A stretch of 48,857 bases of DNA from Rouxiella silvae (GTDB taxonomy: Bacteria > Pseudomonadota > Gammaproteobacteria > Enterobacterales > Enterobacteriaceae): the NCBI RefSeq assembly GCF_002093625.1, contig NZ_MRWD01000044.1, positions 1-48,857 on the forward strand, given 5' to 3'. Position 1 is the stretch's first letter. Each line of letters starts with the position of its first letter. The translations under genes were made by a program, and so were the position numbers. The notes under the pieces were generated by a model. The model made no database searches and was not told the DNA's origin. It saw only the letters and a program-made list of their open reading frames with translations. Positions 2,592 through 12,767 of this stretch are shown in pieces.

Positions 2592-2743
2592 TTCCTGTTA
2601 ACAAAGCTTACAGGGGTTAAATTCACAATGTTAATAGTATGTTTTGCGAATGTTGTCACAAAACCTTACTAATTTCGCAAAGTTATTATCACCACGCGTC
2701 AAACTTGCTGGTAAAGCATCCATCCTCGGCTACGCTTTAAGTT

Positions 2744-2847
2744 GTAAGGCTTAACCGCCTGCATCAATGCCAACTTTTAGCGCACGGCTCTCTCCCAAGA
2801 GCCATTTCCCTAGACCGAATATAGGAATCGTATTCGGTCTTTTTTTA
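2744..2847 (+). ncRNA. sdsR: SdsR (RyeB) small regulatory RNA
   Basis: Hfq-dependent sRNA made in stationary phase from a sigma-S promoter in enterobacteria. The sequence keeps the conserved core ATGCCAACTTTTAGCGCACG, the GGCTCTC/GAGAGCC-like middle hairpin, and the terminator hairpin GACCGAATA / TATTCGGTC with a T run. A sigma-S-like -10 (CTACGCTTT) lies just upstream at 2730-2738. The location beside yebY is the same as in E. coli. The last 24 bp are also the attL core of the prophage, and the gene remains whole after integration. The 5' end is estimated by analogy with the E. coli 104-nt RNA. Confidence 0.92.
2823..2846. repeat. attL core in the sdsR terminator
   Basis: A 24-bp sequence (AGGAATCGTATTCGGTC followed by seven T) identical to 44954-44977. 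It is the right half of the sdsR terminator hairpin. Integration into an intrinsic terminator regenerates the host RNA gene on the left side. Confidence 0.92.
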
Positions 2848-2880
2848 TGTTTTTGATTTATATGAATAAAAATTAGTGAT

Positions 2881-2925: not shown

Positions 2926-4008
2926 TTACAGCATCTCGTATTCCTTGCCTCTTGTATCGAGGTATTTGTCCGTCATTTTCTCCGATTTATGCCCCAATAA
3001 TCGCCTCGCAAAATCCTTTCCTTTCTCCTTCTCATATAGCCGACCAGCCAGGCTCCGGATCTCATGGAACGTTGGCGCATTCTCCTCAAAAACCAATCCA
3101 CTCGCCTTCCTTGCTGCAACAAACTTCTTTGTCAGGCTATCTGGATGAAGGTAGCCATCTTGGCTGTTTTTCCTGAGCCCGGCACTAACCATAAAATTAG
3201 TGGTGCTGGCCTGACGACATTGCTCAACGATCTCACCAAGCTTTAGACCAGCTGCTTTTAGTTCCAGCTCCAGGGGGATCGAAAGCATTGCTCCCGTTTT
3301 TCCCTGTTCGATTTGCAGACGGCCATTTACAATGTGATCAAAGCGAAGCATTGCTACATCTTCGCGTCTCTGTCCTGTGGCCAGAGCTAAATCCATAGCC
3401 AGTGAGAACCATCGTGGCAAGGTGTCCGCCGCTCTCCTGATTGCTCTGTACTGCTCCAGCTCCAAGCGCTCACGTTTAACTGTGACCTTAGCTGATCGAG
3501 TTGGGCTTACCGGATTTGACACAACATGGCCCTCTACGACCGCTTCTCTGAATACGTCCGATAAGACGGAACGCATGGTTGCCGCCATTGATGATTTATC
3601 CTGAATAACCCAGGTTTCAAGAAATTCAGCAATATGTTTAGTGGTGACTTTGCTTAATACAATAGCGCCCATTCTTTCATCAATTACCGAGAGTTGGCCC
3701 TTACGCACTTTGTTTGTGTTTTCTGCTAATTTTCGCCTTTCGAAAATCACCGCATACCGTTTCAACCAGCTTGAAAGAGTAAGTTCGTCACCGCCTTTCA
3801 GCTTCTCCAGAAGGAGTACGGGCGAGTAGTTTTTATCGATGTAATTATTCGCCTCAATAGCCTGAGAAATAGCGTCCCTGCGAGCGATTACTCCTAAAGC
3901 AATTTCTTTACCTGTCAGCGGATTACGCCAGTAGTATGATTTATACTTTTTACGGTAAGTGAGATTTTTAGGTAAGTTTGCATCATACCTTGCGGGCCGC
4001 CGTGTCAT
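2926..4008 (-). CDS. int: Tyrosine-family phage integrase
   Basis: Site-specific recombinase (360 aa) that integrates and excises the prophage at the sdsR site. Residues 1-60 look like the arm-binding domain of lambda/HK022-type Int, with the motif YRKKYKSYYWRNP. The catalytic set is visible: R214 (TGQRRED), K237, H315-x-x-R318 (HEIR), H340 (LLGH) and nucleophile Y349 (DKYLDTRG). The C-terminus resembles lambda Int closely in this last block. It lies directly beside attL and its start overlaps xis by 26 bp, so the two are co-translated from the leftward operon. Confidence 0.95.
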   Translation of the reverse strand: MTRRPARYDANLPKNLTYRKKYKSYYWRNPLTGKEIALGVIARRDAISQAIEANNYIDKNYSPVLLLEKLKGGDELTLSSWLKRYAVIFERRKLAENTNKVRKGQLSVIDERMGAIVLSKVTTKHIAEFLETWVIQDKSSMAATMRSVLSDVFREAVVEGHVVSNPVSPTRSAKVTVKRERLELEQYRAIRRAADTLPRWFSLAMDLALATGQRREDVAMLRFDHIVNGRLQIEQGKTGAMLSIPLELELKAAGLKLGEIVEQCRQASTTNFMVSAGLRKNSQDGYLHPDSLTKKFVAARKASGLVFEENAPTFHEIRSLAGRLYEKEKGKDFARRLLGHKSEKMTDKYLDTRGKEYEML

Positions 4009-4342
4009 TGATCACCTTCTGCATAAAAGCGCTTTTTGCTGGCTTATTGCTTTGTGCTTCTTTAATTTTCTCACCAGTTTTCACATCGGTGGGATTTACG
4101 TAAATCGCGTCTGTTCGAACTACGTATTGCCTGCCGTGCTTTTCAGGTGCCGGATAAATCTTCCCGTCACGGGCCCACCGCTGGAGTGTCTGCACCGTGG
4201 GTTTGTACTCTTTGTATTTGAGATCTCGCCACTCTTCTAACGTGAGCCACTTGCTCATTACGTCATATGCGGCCAATTGATTGCTTTTAGCGGCTTCTGG
4301 GGTTGGGTGTTCTCCGGCGGCCTTGGCGGTTTTTTGATTCAT
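3983..4342 (-). CDS. xis: Excisionase-like protein (Xis)
   Basis: Small DNA-binding protein (119 aa) expected to direct Int toward excision. Residues 30-85 match the winged-helix fold of phage excisionases: WLTLEEWRDLKY, then TVQTLQRWARDGKIYP and KHGRQYVV. The first 29 residues are an extension; a start at the internal ATG (MSKWLTL) is possible. I prefer 4342 because the Shine-Dalgarno AGAGG sits just upstream within a 15-nt motif shared with four other phage genes and complementary to the candidate sRNA at 7657-7777. It overlaps int. Confidence 0.85.
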   Translation of the reverse strand: MNQKTAKAAGEHPTPEAAKSNQLAAYDVMSKWLTLEEWRDLKYKEYKPTVQTLQRWARDGKIYPAPEKHGRQYVVRTDAIYVNPTDVKTGEKIKEAQSNKPAKSAFMQKVINDTAARKV

Positions 4343-4505
4343 GGTCTTGCCTCTGTATTATGCGGGATATGGCGGTATCGGCGGCGATACATGCCCGGTC
4401 TATATCCTGCTGATTGATGGTCTTTTTTCTGATGCTGAAAGAGAGCTTCCCGATCTTTAAATCGAAATCAGTAAGTAGGCATTTGCCTGATTGCCATGGT
4501 TGCAT
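4287..4505 (-). CDS. Small phage protein, unknown
   Basis: A 72-residue reading frame with a good Shine-Dalgarno (AAAAGGA) before the ATG at 4505. Its last 56 bp overlap the xis start, typical of packed early phage genes. The N-terminal half (LTDFDLKIGKLSFSIRKK) looks like a folded small protein, and the tail is very basic (GRRRTPNPRSR). I do not recognise a family. The overlap leaves some doubt that it is real. Confidence 0.5.
   Translation of the reverse strand: MQPWQSGKCLLTDFDLKIGKLSFSIRKKTINQQDIDRACIAADTAISRIIQRQDHESKNRQGRRRTPNPRSR
4342..4356 (-). promoter_or_regulatory. Shared RBS motif, target site 1 (xis)
   Basis: On the minus strand ACAGAGGCAAGACCA covers the Shine-Dalgarno and reaches the A of the xis start codon. 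All 15 nt are complementary to the candidate sRNA. Confidence 0.75.
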
Positions 4506-4766: not shown

Positions 4767-5267
4767 TTAACGAACTTGGAGGCTACGTGAACCGATTTCG
4801 ATGTGTGCGCCAGGTACCTCAACGCCACTCTCAAGAGCTTCTTTGATGGCTTTTTTGTCCGGCGCGGAAATCATCTGCACATCAACTAACTCGTCTGGCA
4901 GGAGCTCCACGTTGTCTATGACTACGCTGGCCACGCCTTTACGTGCGGTGAATGTGTTAACAGGCGTTTTCAGCTTATCCAGCCCGGCAGCCAGCAGGCA
5001 ACTGAGCACGTACTGCCGGAGGTGCTTAGCTTGATTTTCAAAGCTTCTTTTGCGGTCTGCCAATCGCTTGGCTTCCTCATCACAGGTTTTTGAGAGCCCT
5101 TCAAGGTTGCGGATAAACTTAAACGTATTGTCCAGCTTCTCCTCGAGCATGCCCTCAATGCTCTCGAGAGTGTCCGCAATCATCTCAGGAGTCAGCTCCT
5201 CTGAGGTTTCCAACAGTTGCTGTAATTTGTTGTAGTCTGCGGCTAATGCGATAGCTGTTGTGCTCAT
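4767..5267 (-). CDS. Gp157-family phage protein
   Basis: A 166-residue, largely helical protein matching the Siphovirus Gp157 family: an acidic N-terminus (LLETSEELTPEMIADTLESI), a coiled-coil centre (EEAKRLADRKRSFENQAKHL), and a C-terminal strand-rich part (TARKGVASVVIDNVELLP). Family members sit in phage recombination or replication operons. Its start overlaps the stop of the upstream recombination gene by 4 bp (ATGA), so the two are translationally coupled. Its biochemical role is not known. Confidence 0.82.
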   Translation of the reverse strand: MSTTAIALAADYNKLQQLLETSEELTPEMIADTLESIEGMLEEKLDNTFKFIRNLEGLSKTCDEEAKRLADRKRSFENQAKHLRQYVLSCLLAAGLDKLKTPVNTFTARKGVASVVIDNVELLPDELVDVQMISAPDKKAIKEALESGVEVPGAHIEIGSRSLQVR

Positions 5268-7261
5268 GCTGTTTCCCCTTGAAGTTGGTTAATGCGGGCA
5301 GTTTTGATTTCTGACAGGCGGCGGAGTCGTCCGGCGAGATACTTAGCTCGTTCTGGATCGCCTTTGGCTTCTGCATCTTTGCGGTGAATATCAATCTCAC
5401 GGGCCACTGTCTTGAATATTTTCTCGGCCTCATTAGTAGTGACAGCCTTTTCAATGCTGGTGGCATTCTTACTTAGCTTTTCATCAAATTCAGTGCGTGC
5501 GGTGGCAATGTCCTCAGCTTTATCGCTGGCGTTCTTAAGGGCAAATTCCTGCTTAACCTCGTTGCGATAAGCTTGATCATCGTAAAGACCCAAGAACACA
5601 TCTGCAGAAAAGCCAAGTAGCGATAGAGCCTTTTTGACTGCGTCGGTTAGAGACTTTTTAGGAGCTTCGCCATCGGTAGTTAATCCGTATTTGGTGTTGT
5701 AGAGATACTCTGTACAACCATAGGATTGGATGTGGCATTTTTCCCCATCCAGCCGATACCAAAAATCAATCAGTACCGTATGATTCAGCTCGCATACCGC
5801 ATTTCCGTCGGCATCACGTACTATTCTGCTACCAGCAGGTTTACCAGAATCATCGGTGATCTTTTCGGTGATAGGCGCTCCTTTATCAAAGCGCTCCTCA
5901 TCGATGTTGTAACCCCAGCCTTTTCCTATAGGGCCGAAAATTTCTGTAGCGCGCATCATCATGTAGGTACCGTTGATCGAAGTGCCGCCGCCGTTATTGC
6001 TAAAGGCCTTGGTAAATTTCTCATCGGTCTTTTGCACGCTCCGCCAGATGCTTAGATTTTTCTGGGCATCTACCGGGAGTTTTTCGATTTCTTTATCGAG
6101 GTTTTCAATAGCGGCCGGGGCTGCTTCTTGAACCTGCACTAACTGTTTCTCGACTTCTTTTGCGGTGCTAGCTTGCTCGATGACAACTGCAGCAGCGGCA
6201 ACCTCAGGCTTACCTTCTTGTTGTTGCTTTTCAATCAGCGGCTTATTTTCACTAGCCTTTTCGCCCGTCAAACCCTCTATGCTGAAAGCGCCATTACCCA
6301 GATTTTGAACTGTGACTTCTGCCTCAGGTGGCTTGGCACCTAGGTTTGATAGGTACGTAGCAATGACATGCGAACGTTCGAGGTTATTAACGGTATTCAG
6401 AGGCTTTCTTTTGCATAACTCTTGGACCAGACCGACAATTACTTCACGGCTGTGACATGTCACACCATCAACGGCGCGTATTGATCCAGAGAATGCGCGG
6501 AAAGATTTATCCTCGTTCTCTCTGAGCATTTCCCGTGCCTGATTGACTAGCGCAGGTGAAGGGGAGGCGATGTCCACTCCGCAAAGCGCCATAGCTATGT
6601 CCATATCAATTTCTTGCAGTGTCCGTGCGGGAGTACTTGCCGGTGCGGGGCGTTCAGTTGGTTTATTCACCCAGTGTTGAGCGAATGCCAATACCTTAGA
6701 TACGGACAACACCGGGTTATATTTTGCATAGATAGCCTGAATCAGTTCGCGCATCGATGCCGGATACATTTGCTCGAGTGCTTTGATTTGTGAGAGAGCT
6801 TCAACGATGGTGCGGAACTGGATATCCGATTCATCATCAGCCAGTGCATCGCAGATCATTGAGTAATCAGATCCCTCAATTTCGTCTTGCTCGAAGAAGA
6901 TGACTGCGGCGATCTTCTCCTTGAGGGATAGCTTTGCCACATCGAAGGGGCCAACATCTTGGCTTTCTTCATCAGCCTGCGCAATGACAACAGAGCGCCA
7001 TATGCCATCGACATATTCGTTATCGATAGCAAAACGCTCGTCAAATTTGTCGAGTGCCGGCCGATTTGAGCCGTGGGCATCTTCTGTGACTTTTGGTTCG
7101 TTAAAGTTATCAGTAGCTGCAGGATATGCGTCATCTAACATCATGATCGCTTTGCCTTTGGCTCCTTTTAGTGAGTTGGCCTCTATAGCTATGGCCAGTG
7201 GTATGGCACCGGCCTTAACTGCCTTTTTGTTGGGTTCGAAAACACAGACATAAACTGTCAT
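5264..7261 (-). CDS. Phage recombination protein: annealing domain with long N-terminal extension
   Basis: A 665-residue protein. The C-terminal half (about 430-600) contains MMMRATEIFGPIGKGWGY, an ELNHTVLIDFWYRLDG strand pair and the helical block KKSLTDAVKKALSLLGF with SADVFLGLYDD. This is the pattern of Rad52-like/ERF-type single-strand annealing proteins. The N-terminal half is different: MTVYVCVFEPNKKA, then a region around 230-310 (CHSREVIVGLVQELCKRKPL) that resembles the non-catalytic part of RecE proteins. I see no RecE nuclease domain. A low-complexity Ala/Glu linker lies between. Role inferred: homologous recombination of phage DNA. Family assignment is by eye. Confidence 0.7.
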   Translation of the reverse strand: MTVYVCVFEPNKKAVKAGAIPLAIAIEANSLKGAKGKAIMMLDDAYPAATDNFNEPKVTEDAHGSNRPALDKFDERFAIDNEYVDGIWRSVVIAQADEESQDVGPFDVAKLSLKEKIAAVIFFEQDEIEGSDYSMICDALADDESDIQFRTIVEALSQIKALEQMYPASMRELIQAIYAKYNPVLSVSKVLAFAQHWVNKPTERPAPASTPARTLQEIDMDIAMALCGVDIASPSPALVNQAREMLRENEDKSFRAFSGSIRAVDGVTCHSREVIVGLVQELCKRKPLNTVNNLERSHVIATYLSNLGAKPPEAEVTVQNLGNGAFSIEGLTGEKASENKPLIEKQQQEGKPEVAAAAVVIEQASTAKEVEKQLVQVQEAAPAAIENLDKEIEKLPVDAQKNLSIWRSVQKTDEKFTKAFSNNGGGTSINGTYMMMRATEIFGPIGKGWGYNIDEERFDKGAPITEKITDDSGKPAGSRIVRDADGNAVCELNHTVLIDFWYRLDGEKCHIQSYGCTEYLYNTKYGLTTDGEAPKKSLTDAVKKALSLLGFSADVFLGLYDDQAYRNEVKQEFALKNASDKAEDIATARTEFDEKLSKNATSIEKAVTTNEAEKIFKTVAREIDIHRKDAEAKGDPERAKYLAGRLRRLSEIKTARINQLQGETA

Positions 7262-7262
7262 T

Positions 7263-7276
7263 TTGGTCTTGCCTCT
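7263..7276 (-). promoter_or_regulatory. Shared RBS motif, target site 2 (recombinase)
   Basis: On the minus strand AGAGGCAAGACCAA lies 1 nt before the start codon at 7261 and includes the Shine-Dalgarno. All 14 nt are complementary to the candidate sRNA. Confidence 0.75.
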
Positions 7277-7293: not shown

Positions 7294-7632
7294 TCAGAAC
7301 GGAAGATCGTTTGAATCGTCGTAAGCTGGCGCTGCTGGGATGTAGTCAATGCATAGCAATGATTGGACCTGGTCTTCCAGCAAGGCTTGTTTATGATTTG
7401 CGACTGCCAATATCTTTGCTTGAGATGAGCGCAGTTTTGCCACCTCAAGAGAAAGAATGTCATCGGGCTGTGGGACGTTAATGGTGACTTCAACGATACC
7501 TAATAGCACTGAATCTTCGGTATATTCAGAGCTATCAAACTCGCTGATTGATAGGTCGTATTCTTTGGTGTAAGAATTACGTTTTGCGGTGATAAACACT
7601 GGTTTTGTCAGCGTCTTAGGTAGTGCTCTCAT
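7294..7632 (-). CDS. Small early phage protein with SSB-like C-terminal tail
   Basis: A 112-residue protein, first gene of the leftward operon. The C-terminus, PAAPAYDDSNDLPF, resembles the acidic tip of single-strand binding protein (DDDIPF), the docking peptide for RecQ, RecO, PriA, Exo I and other repair enzymes. The rest shows no OB-fold signature that I recognise. The Shine-Dalgarno is CAGGAG before the ATG at 7632. It lies directly before the recombination gene, so a role in recombination or in recruiting or blocking host SSB partners is plausible, but inferred. Confidence 0.7.
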   Translation of the reverse strand: MRALPKTLTKPVFITAKRNSYTKEYDLSISEFDSSEYTEDSVLLGIVEVTINVPQPDDILSLEVAKLRSSQAKILAVANHKQALLEDQVQSLLCIDYIPAAPAYDDSNDLPF

Positions 7633-7641
7633 AGCAACTCC

Positions 7642-7650
7642 TGATATACT
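7642..7650 (+). promoter_or_regulatory. Extended -10 promoter of candidate sRNA
   Basis: TGATATACT is a TGn extended -10 element with a near-consensus hexamer (TATACT, 7645-7650). No good -35 is visible, which extended -10 promoters tolerate. A start near 7657 is predicted. Confidence 0.55.
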
Positions 7651-7656
7651 ATTTTC

Positions 7657-7777
7657 AAGGTCGATGGCGTAAGCCGTTGGTCTTGCCTCTGTTTACGGGT
7701 TGGTCCCCGTAAGCAATTCCCGGTTAACTTTGGTCGGTGACCCGGGGTAATCAAACCCACTTCGGTGGGTTTTTTTA
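7657..7777 (+). ncRNA. Candidate antisense sRNA targeting five phage ribosome binding sites
   Basis: A predicted RNA of about 120 nt on the + strand, opposite to the leftward early leader. It begins after an extended -10 and ends in a textbook terminator: ACCCAC, UUCG loop, GUGGGU, then seven U. An internal hairpin UUACGGG / CCCGUAA lies at 7693-7713. The stretch 7676-7697 includes GGUCUUGCCUCUGUUUACG, which is perfectly complementary to the leader and Shine-Dalgarno of five phage genes (starts at 4342, 7261, 9649, 12094, 12764) over 15, 14, 21, 14 and 21 nt. Pairing would cover AGAGG and block ribosome binding. The terminator has no other gene to serve. Existence and function are inferred from sequence. 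Confidence 0.7.
7751..7777 (+). terminator. Terminator of the candidate sRNA
   Basis: AACCCAC TTCG GTGGGTT followed by a T run, + strand only. No protein gene on the + strand ends upstream, so it points to a short untranslated transcript. Confidence 0.85.
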
Positions 7778-7950
7778 CGTCTGCATTTTGGTGCGGCTCT
7801 TTACCCGCCGTCAGAACGTGATAACTAAACTCATCAAACAGCTGCGCCGTTAATTACTCTCCGCAAATCATCCTAGTGTTCATATGCCCCAGGCGGCTAC
7901 TTCGTGGGCTATCCGTGCCTACTTTGCGGTGTTTCGTTTTGATGGGACTA

Positions 7951-7992
7951 ATGATGCTACTTTTGGTAGTGGTAGTCAACTACAAAAAGTAG
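7951..7992 (-). promoter_or_regulatory. Leftward early promoter PL with two repressor operators (OL)
   Basis: On the minus strand: -35 TTGACT (7974-7979), 17-bp spacer, -10 CATCAT (7951-7956). Two 13-bp dyads overlap it: CTACAAAAAGTAG (7980-7992) upstream of the -35 and CTACTTTTGGTAG (7957-7969) in the spacer, 23 bp apart. The arrangement mirrors the rightward promoter exactly. Confidence 0.85.
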
Positions 7993-8046
7993 AAAGTAAT
8001 GACGTGAGATATTCCACTTGAAGTTAAGTGTTGATTCACAAAGAAT

Positions 8047-8075: not shown

Positions 8076-8798
8076 TTAGTAAAAGTCGTTAAATTGAAGG
8101 GGTAAGTGCTTGATTAGTCTTCCAAATATGAAAAGTTCATGCATTTCATTTGGCTCAATATAGAAAGGGGGGTAAGTCGGATTATCGGATAACACGGCTA
8201 GCTTTCTACCTTTAATTCGTTGTAATCGCTTAATGAAAGTTGAATCTTCGAAGTTAAAAACATATACGCCGTCACCAATGAAATGGTCAATTTTTGAATC
8301 AATAAAGAGCAAGTCTTTAGGTTTTAATGTTGGGGCCATACTATCACCATCAACATTTATCAGTTTTATACCTTCAAGCGTTTTTCTGCCAAAGAGTTCA
8401 TATATTCGCTCCTTGGGGATCTCCATAGACCTGATTATTTCTGGAAAATCTGTGTTTTTGTAACCTGTTCCAGCAGAAGCGAAAACGTCTAACTGCTCTA
8501 ATCTTTCTGTGTCTTTTTCAACTAAAACAATAGTGTCACCACCAACGCCATAATCTAAATACGCTGGCGACACACCGAAGTGATTGGCGATTTTAATCAT
8601 CTTTTCGTCTCTGGGCTTCGCTGTGCCCATGGTATAACGCCGCGCCATCTCATATGAGACACCACATACATTTTTTAACGCTGACACCGACACATCTTGC
8701 TCAATCATTAGGCGATTAAGTCGGCTCGCGAAATCTTTATATTTTTCTTCATCTTCTACCATACGTAGAAGGTTACTTAGTTCTAGGAGTTTCGTCAT
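8076..8798 (-). CDS. cI: CI-like prophage repressor (HTH + S24 self-cleaving domain)
   Basis: Lysogeny repressor of 240 aa. Residues 22-75 form the helix-turn-helix domain (VSALKNVCGVSYEMARRYTMG). The C-terminal S24/LexA-like domain shows the Ala-Gly cleavage site A109-G110 (FASAGTGY), catalytic S153 (VDGDSMAPTL) and K190 (TFIKRLQR), so induction by RecA-stimulated self-cleavage is expected. It is flanked by matching operator pairs at 7957-7992 and 8801-8836. No Shine-Dalgarno is seen before the ATG, and the predicted maintenance promoter (-10 TAAAAT at 8817-8822) would start transcription only about 12 nt upstream, as in nearly leaderless lambda cI mRNA. Confidence 0.93.
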   Translation of the reverse strand: MTKLLELSNLLRMVEDEEKYKDFASRLNRLMIEQDVSVSALKNVCGVSYEMARRYTMGTAKPRDEKMIKIANHFGVSPAYLDYGVGGDTIVLVEKDTERLEQLDVFASAGTGYKNTDFPEIIRSMEIPKERIYELFGRKTLEGIKLINVDGDSMAPTLKPKDLLFIDSKIDHFIGDGVYVFNFEDSTFIKRLQRIKGRKLAVLSDNPTYPPFYIEPNEMHELFIFGRLIKHLPLQFNDFY

Positions 8799-8800
8799 TT

Positions 8801-8842
8801 CTATTTTTTGTAGTTGATTTTATCTACTTAAAGTAGCATTAT
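8801..8842 (+). promoter_or_regulatory. Rightward early promoter PR with two repressor operators (OR)
   Basis: -35 TTGATT (8814-8819), 17-bp spacer, -10 CATTAT (8837-8842). Operators CTATTTTTTGTAG (8801-8813) and CTACTTAAAGTAG (8824-8836) lie 23 bp apart, the same geometry as OL. The second is a perfect palindrome. The divergent maintenance promoter for cI overlaps it. Confidence 0.85.
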
Positions 8843-8869
8843 GATTTCAATTAACACTCGGAGATCGTT

Positions 8870-9174: not shown

Positions 9175-9633
9175 ATGGACATCAACTTACTAAAAACCGA
9201 GTTGGAATCGTGGGCGGCAGAAGTAGGGCAAGAGCACGTAGCAATTGAGGTTAGCCGCTATTTTTTACTTCTTGGCGGTGGCCCACGCGTTCGGCTTCAT
9301 CAAATTGAGCACAGCGGTGTCGCCGATTGGCGGGCAATAAATAACAACCGGCAGCAGATATTTAGATGGCTTCGCGGAGATTCACGCGCTTCAGCTCAAA
9401 AGCTTCAAGAGCTGGCCCCTGCGATTCAGGCCGCACTGCCGGCAGAACGACGAGCAAAACTAGATGGCGATGTATCGATGCTTTACCTGGTCTCGATCGC
9501 CATTCGCGAGTTTGCCGCTGCGATCATCGCCATCCTTCTAGATGACCGTGACATGTCACAGCGATTAGCAATAGCAAACTCGGCAATGGCAGCTATGGCA
9601 CCAGTATTACAACTGCGGACGACCACCGCGTAA
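9175..9633 (+). CDS. ydaT: YdaT-family early regulator (CII position)
   Basis: A 152-residue protein resembling Rac prophage YdaT: NNNRQQIFRWLRGDSRASAQ, then LQELAPAIQAALPAERRAKL and a helical C-terminus. YdaT proteins are DNA-binding, toxic when overproduced, and occupy the place of lambda cII. In this phage the gene follows cro directly. I chose ATG 9175 because GGAGACGC precedes it; the frame is open to 9157 but that start has no ribosome site. Confidence 0.75.
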   Translation: MDINLLKTELESWAAEVGQEHVAIEVSRYFLLLGGGPRVRLHQIEHSGVADWRAINNNRQQIFRWLRGDSRASAQKLQELAPAIQAALPAERRAKLDGDVSMLYLVSIAIREFAAAIIAILLDDRDMSQRLAIANSAMAAMAPVLQLRTTTA

Positions 9634-9649
9634 ACAGAGGCAAGACCAA
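9629..9649 (+). promoter_or_regulatory. Shared RBS motif, target site 3
   Basis: CGTAAACAGAGGCAAGACCA plus the A of the start codon: 21 nt perfectly complementary to the candidate sRNA. It includes the Shine-Dalgarno of the gene at 9649. Confidence 0.78.
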
Positions 9650-9876
9650 TGCACAATTCGATGAACCAGATCACTTACCGGAATGGTTTCCAGCTTAATG
9701 GCCAACCGGCTACGGTTGAGGAAATTACACCGATTTTTGAAAAACGCCGTGCTGCCGCGCTTACTGTTTGGGAAGAATACGAGCAAAACAAAGCGCAGCT
9801 GCGCCAGATGCTGGATCTCTCACCAGAAGAGTATCAGCGGGCATGTCGCCAGATAGCTGACGCATTAGGGATTTGA
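9649..9876 (+). CDS. Small early phage protein, unknown
   Basis: A 75-residue protein with a beta-like N-terminus (ITYRNGFQLNGQPATVEEI) and two predicted helices rich in Gln and Glu (EQNKAQLRQMLDLSPEEYQ). No family recognised. The start at 9649 is supported by AGAGG in the shared motif; an internal ATG at 9661 lacks a ribosome site. It lies between ydaT and the replication gene and is a predicted target of the sRNA. Confidence 0.75.
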   Translation: MHNSMNQITYRNGFQLNGQPATVEEITPIFEKRRAAALTVWEEYEQNKAQLRQMLDLSPEEYQRACRQIADALGI

Positions 9877-12053: not shown

Positions 12054-12080
12054 ACCACGCCTGACCAGCGTTTAAACCAA

Positions 12081-12094
12081 AGAGGCAAGACCAA
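12081..12094 (+). promoter_or_regulatory. Shared RBS motif, target site 4
   Basis: AGAGGCAAGACCA plus the A of the start codon: 14 nt complementary to the candidate sRNA. It contains the Shine-Dalgarno of the gene at 12094. Upstream bases differ from copies 3 and 6. Confidence 0.75.
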
Positions 12095-12518: not shown

Positions 12519-12767
12519 ATGGGCCAGTCAGATTATCTACCACCTGGATTACCCCATAATCGATGTGAATGGCCGCAGGATCTTAGAGATTTGGAAAACC
12601 TCGATATGCGAGCCAGCGGTTTAATCAAAAACATAGTTTTGAAAAAGATCACCCGAGGCAGTGTTGAGCAGCAGATTAAGCAGGTTGACGAGCGGTACCG
12701 GGATCATTTCAAAGCACGCCTGAATTACTGGCGCGAATACCACGTAAACAGAGGCAAGACCAAATGA
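12519..12767 (+). CDS. Small early phage protein, unknown
   Basis: An 82-residue basic protein with a helical C-terminal half (SVEQQIKQVDERYRDHFKARLNYWREY). It begins 2 bp after the previous stop and ends overlapping the next start by 4 bp. Its last codons (VNRGKTK) are made from the shared ribosome-site motif that serves the next gene, so that motif is coding here. Confidence 0.75.
   Translation: MGQSDYLPPGLPHNRCEWPQDLRDLENLDMRASGLIKNIVLKKITRGSVEQQIKQVDERYRDHFKARLNYWREYHVNRGKTK
12743..12763 (+). promoter_or_regulatory. Shared RBS motif, target site 5
   Basis: CGTAAACAGAGGCAAGACCA plus one A: 21 nt perfectly complementary to the candidate sRNA, ending directly before the ATG at 12764. It lies inside the 3' end of the preceding gene. 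Confidence 0.78.

Follow-up and report, generated by a model that had tools for sequence, protein, structure and literature searches.

The window analysed here, a stretch of 48,857 nucleotides (nt) forming positions 1 to 48,857 of contig NZ_MRWD01000044.1 of Rouxiella silvae, carries a lambdoid-like prophage with excision and recombination genes on the minus strand, a CI-like repressor gene, and replication genes on the plus strand (Table 1). Between the exonuclease side and the repressor gene lies a candidate small RNA (sRNA) gene, related to the Rfam family isrB, whose seed is antisense to a box found at the starts of five prophage genes on both arms. Comparison with related phages makes it highly probable that one terminator-ended sRNA controls several early genes by seed pairing at their ribosome sites.

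The 12-mer AGAGGCAAGACC occurs in the window as exactly six exact copies; shuffled sequences average 0.02 copies, and none of 100 shuffles contained six. An original prediction, made from this sequence alone, had described five copies at gene starts on both strands and one orphan copy, and all were recounted exactly. The lengths it claimed for complementarity of the plus-strand RNA to the sites at 4342, 7261, 9649, 12094 and 12764 (15, 14, 21, 14 and 21 nt, respectively) were reproduced, and the extended -10 element and terminator it had placed around the orphan copy are present. The five boxes end 0-3 nt ahead of the ATG of these open reading frames, and the boxes contain the Shine-Dalgarno-like AGAGG with the ATG following. 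In its own genome outside the prophage region, the 10-mer AGGCAAGACC is hardly enriched, with eight copies there, and six of a reversed control counted over the entire genome. On visual inspection no copy is a clear ribosome site, although one (L178) directly precedes an ATG.

Table 1. Features of the prophage and of the candidate sRNA locus in the window.
Feature	Position	Strand	Remarks
Integrase gene		-	prophage left arm
Excisionase gene	3983-4342	-	PF07825, phrog_629
Target box, excisionase start	4343-4354	-	ATG at 4342
Gp157/Gam-like gene		-	between excisionase and exonuclease in listed gene order
RecE-like exonuclease gene	5264-7261	-	phrog_2489
Target box, RecE-like exonuclease start	7265-7276	-	ATG at 7261
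Small phrog_2479 gene		-	after RecE-like exonuclease in listed gene order
Extended -10 promoter element TGATATACT	7642-7650	+	by eye, relatives have comparable -10 elements here
Candidate sRNA gene, about 120 nt, isrB-related	7657-7777	+	fold, Rfam RF01386, covariation
Hairpin 1	7657-7684	+	3' arm contains first half of seed (UUGGUCUU)
Seed, antisense to boxes	7677-7697	+	core 7679-7690; complementary over 21 nt to the 9649 and 12764 sites
Orphan copy of AGAGGCAAGACC	7679-7690	-	antisense within the plus-strand sRNA gene; no gene start
Hairpin 2	7690-7715	+	loop UUGGUC at 7700-7705
Hairpin 3, isrB hallmark CUUUGGUCGGUG	7718-7747	+	loop UUGGUC at 7730-7735
Intrinsic terminator	7753-7777	+	stem 7753-7772, then T
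Putative leftward early promoter/operator pL	7936-7995	-	60-nt, 75% inverted-repeat twin of 8798-8857
CI-like repressor gene	8076-8798	-	PF00717 and HTH_3
Putative rightward early promoter/operator pR	8798-8857	+	twin of pL
Cro-like gene, then CII-like gene		+	right arm
Leader hairpin, loop ACGACCA	9614-9630	+	upstream of 9636 box
Target box, phrog_2465 gene start	9636-9647	+	ATG at 9649
phrog_2465 gene	9649-9876	+	between CII-like and O-like genes
O-like gene, DnaB-like helicase gene		+	upstream of genes at 12094 and 12764
Leader hairpin ACGC-CTGACCA-GCGT	12057-12071	+	upstream of 12081 box
Target box, post-helicase gene start	12081-12092	+	ATG at 12094
Post-helicase gene	ATG at 12094	+	after DnaB-like helicase gene
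Target box, start of gene at 12764	12750-12761	+	ATG at 12764
Gene at 12764	ATG at 12764	+	156 amino acids; no family found

The RNA predicted from 7657 to 7777 folds with -51.1 kcal/mol (z -4.4), a value equalled by none of 200 shuffles, and its start would lie near 7657. A consensus promoter scan did not list the sRNA promoter at 7642-7650 among its sites; over the whole scan, neither promoter-like sites (11, against 11.6 in shuffles) nor terminator-like sites (11 against 9.9) were in excess. We aligned 20 sRNAs of the group and, as the RNAalifold consensus of the raw alignment was weak, took the pairs common to the individual folds and counted them together with slid controls. The pairs were formed in 92.3% of the cells, compared with 37-51% in the slid controls, although the consensus structure was taken from the same sequences that were scored, which favours the real over the slid versions. 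Two-sided changes occur at 25 of the 40 RNA pairs, including 8 of 13 in hairpin 1 and all 8 modelled pairs of hairpin 2. Most of the 20 sRNAs carry the UUGGUC loop in both hairpins 2 and 3, and in the predicted folds the UUGCCUC part of the seed is mostly open. This comparison shows the structure of the predicted sRNA to be under selection.

The 3' two thirds of the sRNA match Rfam isrB (RF01386) at 7687-7775, with 42.6 bits over model positions 1-87 of 87 and a gathering cut-off of 35. The original prediction, which cited no described sRNA of this multi-site design for the phage group, missed the match to isrB, a known family of prophage sRNAs; no RNA of this design was found in the literature searched (mostly without subscription journals, and with sources here and below available in part), including a 2025 review of phage sRNAs (PMC12197685). 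Across 295 genomes of the bacterial family, isrB is found in 29 at an expectation value (E) of at most 0.01, and in 18 above the cut-off. The sRNA of the window lies opposite the phrog_2489 exonuclease gene, with one small gene intervening. Salmonella isrB-1 is located between sbcA and STM1010 (PMC2515195), an order that places it at the same position relative to the exonuclease gene, and it is apparently expressed in strain 4/74 (PMC7067206). Salmonella IsrB of the Gifsy prophages shares with our sRNA hairpin 3, the terminator, the place opposite a RecE/SbcA-type gene and an Rfam score above cut-off. It differs in its 5' half, where the window has hairpins 1-2 and the seed, and in that Salmonella-type loci are without matching multi-gene boxes. 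In a subfamily model (R1) that included the window, Salmonella-type and D-class loci (see below) reached 25-50 bits and the window 111. The accessible parts of the literature examined, including PMC7556043 and PMC13397905, name no targets for isrB. A set of Salmonella-type loci (L035-L047, L049-L051, L053, L055-L057, L060 and L061) keeps the loop and the terminator, and no targets were found nearby.

To compare seeds with boxes, we looked for complementarity to the local RNA in about 12-20 kilobases (kb) of DNA at each isrB locus and in phage ZF40. Loci sharing the seed of the window show the window box at several gene starts, and three genomes with other seeds (G166, G159 and G062) each have boxes matching their own. 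A pattern scan returned 85 loci (57 viral, 28 genome contigs), from which 20 chance matches, removed by eye, and the seedless L109 were set aside, leaving 64. Seed GGTCTTTCCT is present at 28 loci, where the boxes read AGGAAAGACC and those of the other four classes are absent. Adding ten named loci, six loci from the blind search described below and Stenotrophomonas phage BUCT708 brought the set to 81 loci scored for box classes A-E; boxes of the local class and of other classes numbered 155 and 11 in class A, 111 and 0 in B, 3 and 0 in C, 4 and 0 in D, and 7 and 0 in E. In these five classes, an ATG follows within 7 nt of 154 of 181 distinct boxes, and class D boxes have no AGG.

A covariance model built from the 20 sRNAs was run over 392 genomes of the family. 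Among the matches listed, 14 genomes scored at least 68.9 bits, followed by a gap and then matches of at most 50.5 bits. We examined 40 further places among these matches and found the new seeds F, G, H, I and J with matching boxes, many D-class loci, several of Salmonella type and some false hits. Class F loci have matches of 12-19 nt at four to six sites each, and class J of 15-21 nt at five sites. Fourteen of the 40 places are without an A-J seed and stand outside the final table, as do 24 other seedless loci; among the fourteen, L226, L244, L245, L247 and L249 look by eye like Salmonella-type loci, and L239, L251, L253, L256, L257 and L259 were taken as false hits. Two loci (L222, L223) carry a D-variant seed with matching boxes and another (L255) an I-variant seed, none of which fits the ten 10-mers that define the classes. 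The table thus holds 107 loci in ten seed classes, A-J, with 335 own-class boxes (221 distinct contexts). Other-class boxes number 32 (22 distinct) in nine times as many cells, and the reversed-motif control gave 35 matches over all cells. At least one own-class box is present in 105 of the 107 seed-bearing loci, and the 35 loci of at least 12 kb contain from 1 to 8 (median 4). Four other-class boxes pair with the local seed through G-U wobble, seed I with two F boxes and seed G with two J boxes. Genome G180 carries two loci, L054 and L224, of classes A and F.

We also searched blindly with respect to the RNA, through the target protein family phrog_2465, which was found in 14 of the 392 genomes, eight of them new. 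The sRNA is intact in six of the eight new prophages, and in all six the boxes agree with the seed. L169 and L174 belong to class B and L170 and L172 to class A. L171, also of class A, has a wobble box at the phrog_2465 gene and exact boxes elsewhere; L173 defined the new class E; it has seven boxes of that class and no A or B box. Two other searches yielded little: in 369 genomes of the bacterial class, phrog_2465 matched only in the genome of the window itself, and the 75-amino-acid target protein gave only two loci in viral contigs, one of them the window. The claim that one antisense RNA acts on several early genes is therefore upheld by seeds and boxes that change together in relatives, including those found independently of the RNA. 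That sRNA and target sites vary in concert among related phages is strong evidence that the pairing is real.

The genes that bear boxes in different phages include orthologs of phrog_2465, the exonuclease, the 12094 gene, the 12764 gene and the excisionase or an adjacent short gene, and orthologous targets bear the box of the local class. We built quick trees with single support values. On that of DnaB, seed class changes five times (the least possible number is three, and the starred branches alone force at least two changes for each of A and B); on that of the exonuclease, class B forms one group. Since seed class changes five times on the DnaB tree, modules are, on this reading of the trees, exchanged among phages, and the boxes nonetheless fit the local seed. 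Exact pairing with the phage's own sRNA extends further upstream of the box than the same-class mean at 70 of 87 class A sites (less far at 17) and at 36 of 56 class B sites (less far at 18, with 2 ties). When duplex energies were compared across 29 sRNAs, the own sRNA took rank 1 for the window, L048, L052, L058 and L063, rank 2 for L054 and rank 4 for L062.

Beyond the boxes, GACCA occurs within 45 nt upstream of 103 of 154 distinct start-site boxes of classes A-E, compared with 4.2% of random 45-mers. Where it lies 12-45 nt upstream (99 leaders), 66 leaders form a stem of at least four pairs closing exactly a 7-nt loop NNGACCA, compared with 6.9% of 1393 distinct GACCA contexts at the same loci, a control that includes the target leaders. 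By class, stems of at least four pairs occur at 44 of 56 sites of B, 26 of 88 of A, 2 of 7 of E, 0 of 20 of D and 0 of 17 of F. These NNGACCA leader loops could kiss the UUGGUC loops of the sRNA. In the wide isrB group, nothing convincing was found in the way of leader loops.

Several results weigh against our interpretation. Within the window, the loop hairpin occurs in only two of the five leaders, and these two are no stabler than shuffles (z 0.63 for that at 9614 and -0.30 for that at 12057). Over about 10 kb, Salmonella-type isrB loci have neither boxes nor convincing leader loops, and in the duplex-energy swap the own sRNA of such a locus ranks anywhere from 4 to 29 of 29; as these loci are negative, we propose the multi-gene mechanism for the seed-bearing subfamily and not for all isrB. 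The own sRNAs of the D-class loci L064 and L065 rank 29 and 28 of 29, though exact boxes are present. A seed without an own-class box in the available DNA is found at L221, whose contig starts at the sRNA, and at L243. Among the ten classes, F-J were defined after the matches had been seen, and the loci are related, some representing one prophage twice (L120 is the window), so that the counts are not independent. Lastly, the original prediction had held that boxes conserved at gene starts in phages without the RNA locus would refute it, and such a situation occurs in two of the eight blind finds, L175 and L176, which keep boxes without an intact sRNA; by eye both look like remnants, with the left arm or the immunity region gone, and the RNA is intact in the other six. 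L176 (G114) keeps sRNA hairpin 3, the terminator and two class B boxes, and its seed half is gone.

Could the boxes and the orphan copy instead be DNA operators of one phage protein? A protein of drifting specificity could equalise the sites within a genome, and the copies lie on both strands. However, the boxes are at start codons inside operons and for the most part follow the sense of the mRNA (154 of 181 distinct ones have the ATG within 7 nt), the orphan is antisense inside a covarying, terminator-ended RNA in the 20 relatives aligned, and the wobble exceptions (seed I with F boxes, seed G with J boxes, and the box of L171) suit RNA pairing, all of which makes this explanation very improbable. 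We give still less credence, in fact next to none, to the notion that the boxes reflect a translation-start consensus common to the genes, with the copy in the sRNA a functionless relic. The AGAGG ahead of the ATG in the window boxes would suit it, but ten different boxes go with ten matching seeds, class D boxes lack the AGG, and the RNA structure is selected.

An antisense role in cis, with the sRNA acting on the leader of the pL operon only, as OOP does on cII, and the dispersed boxes as a by-product, is only slightly less improbable than a DNA operator. The pL and pR twins flank cI and are presumably the early promoters; a transcript from pL would cross the sRNA gene in antisense, over its whole length, and an extra box recurs in putative pL leaders. 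Among the boxes, 27 distinct ones have no nearby ATG, and 26 of these lie on the cI side, on the minus strand and 175-1215 nt past the point where the sRNA segment starts. Extra boxes beyond the sRNA start occur in both A and B phages; L071, L073, L068, L117 and others have a startless minus-strand box, following the local class, about 180 nt beyond the sRNA segment start. In phage BUCT708 (L154 8085-8210 and 8593, minus strand), several boxes or near-boxes and a CTGACCAGCG element form a sponge-like cluster in a putative pL leader. The window itself lacks the extra pL-leader box, a further point against our interpretation. Against a role confined to the pL leader, boxes follow the seed at gene starts on both arms and also match it in the rightward operon, with which the sRNA gene has no overlap, so that we consider this account very improbable too. 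From these comparisons, it is very likely that the sRNA controls several early genes through base pairing.

We propose that a promoter of its own, situated between the RecE-side operon and cI, would drive the sRNA, and that its terminator would end it. Its seed would pair with the Shine-Dalgarno-to-start region of the mRNAs for the excisionase, the RecE-like exonuclease, the replication-block opener, the post-helicase gene and one more, blocking ribosome entry on several early mRNAs. In the lysogen, the sRNA would silence leaky early transcripts once CI has repressed transcription; its expression, the repression and the use in lysogeny are what we infer from sequence. As further steps, the UUGGUC loops of hairpins 2 and 3 might first kiss the NNGACCA loops in many target leaders and, upon induction of pL, the leader, antisense to the whole sRNA gene, might mop up the sRNA, with the extra pL-leader box as a decoy and possible off-switch. 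A broader scheme, which we hold to be conceivable and on balance doubtful, would make the exchangeable seed and box classes RNA immunity groups of lambdoid-like prophages, in which kissing and seed pairing silence excision, recombination and replication, both in the resident prophage and in same-class phages that enter the cell, and the pL leader (full antisense plus decoy) serves as off-switch.

The C4 RNA of P1 and P7 is a phage antisense RNA with one antirepressor target that favours lysogeny; it had no Rfam match over the window at the gathering score, nor over 7500-7950 at E up to 10. Like the present sRNA, as we propose it, Sar RNA of P22 is an antisense RNA encoded by a phage, keeps a phage gene from being translated and favours lysogeny (PMC12197685). 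Sar has one antirepressor target, whereas in our case a single seed is directed at several genes on both arms. Our sRNA resembles those of the GcvB type, each of which pairs with many mRNAs at or close to the translation start (PMC3879156), in that one seed is complementary to several ribosome sites; it differs in being directed at early genes of the phage itself, and in that its seed and the boxes co-vary as a set from phage to phage. A prophage antisense RNA that confers superinfection exclusion is also known from prophage BTP1, STnc6030, but it is a 786-nt cis antisense of structural genes, with no multi-gene box described in the available part of the paper (PMC7067206). The accessible text of the ZF40 genome paper (PMC3391216) mentions no such RNA or box.

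Our results suggest that a phage coordinates several early genes post-transcriptionally through one RNA. Relatives of the isrB family, for which no target is named in the available parts of the literature examined, gain a testable role. The ten seed classes with their matching boxes constitute a natural set of compensatory mutants, making RNA-level control of lysogeny and RNA-based superinfection immunity directly testable. They may also bear on the coexistence of prophages, as in G180, which holds loci of classes A and F.

At the edge of the prophage, the host sRNA pair SdsR/RyeB and SraC/RyeA (window 2705-2850) adjoins the integrase gene, and this locus may therefore be the site where the prophage sits.
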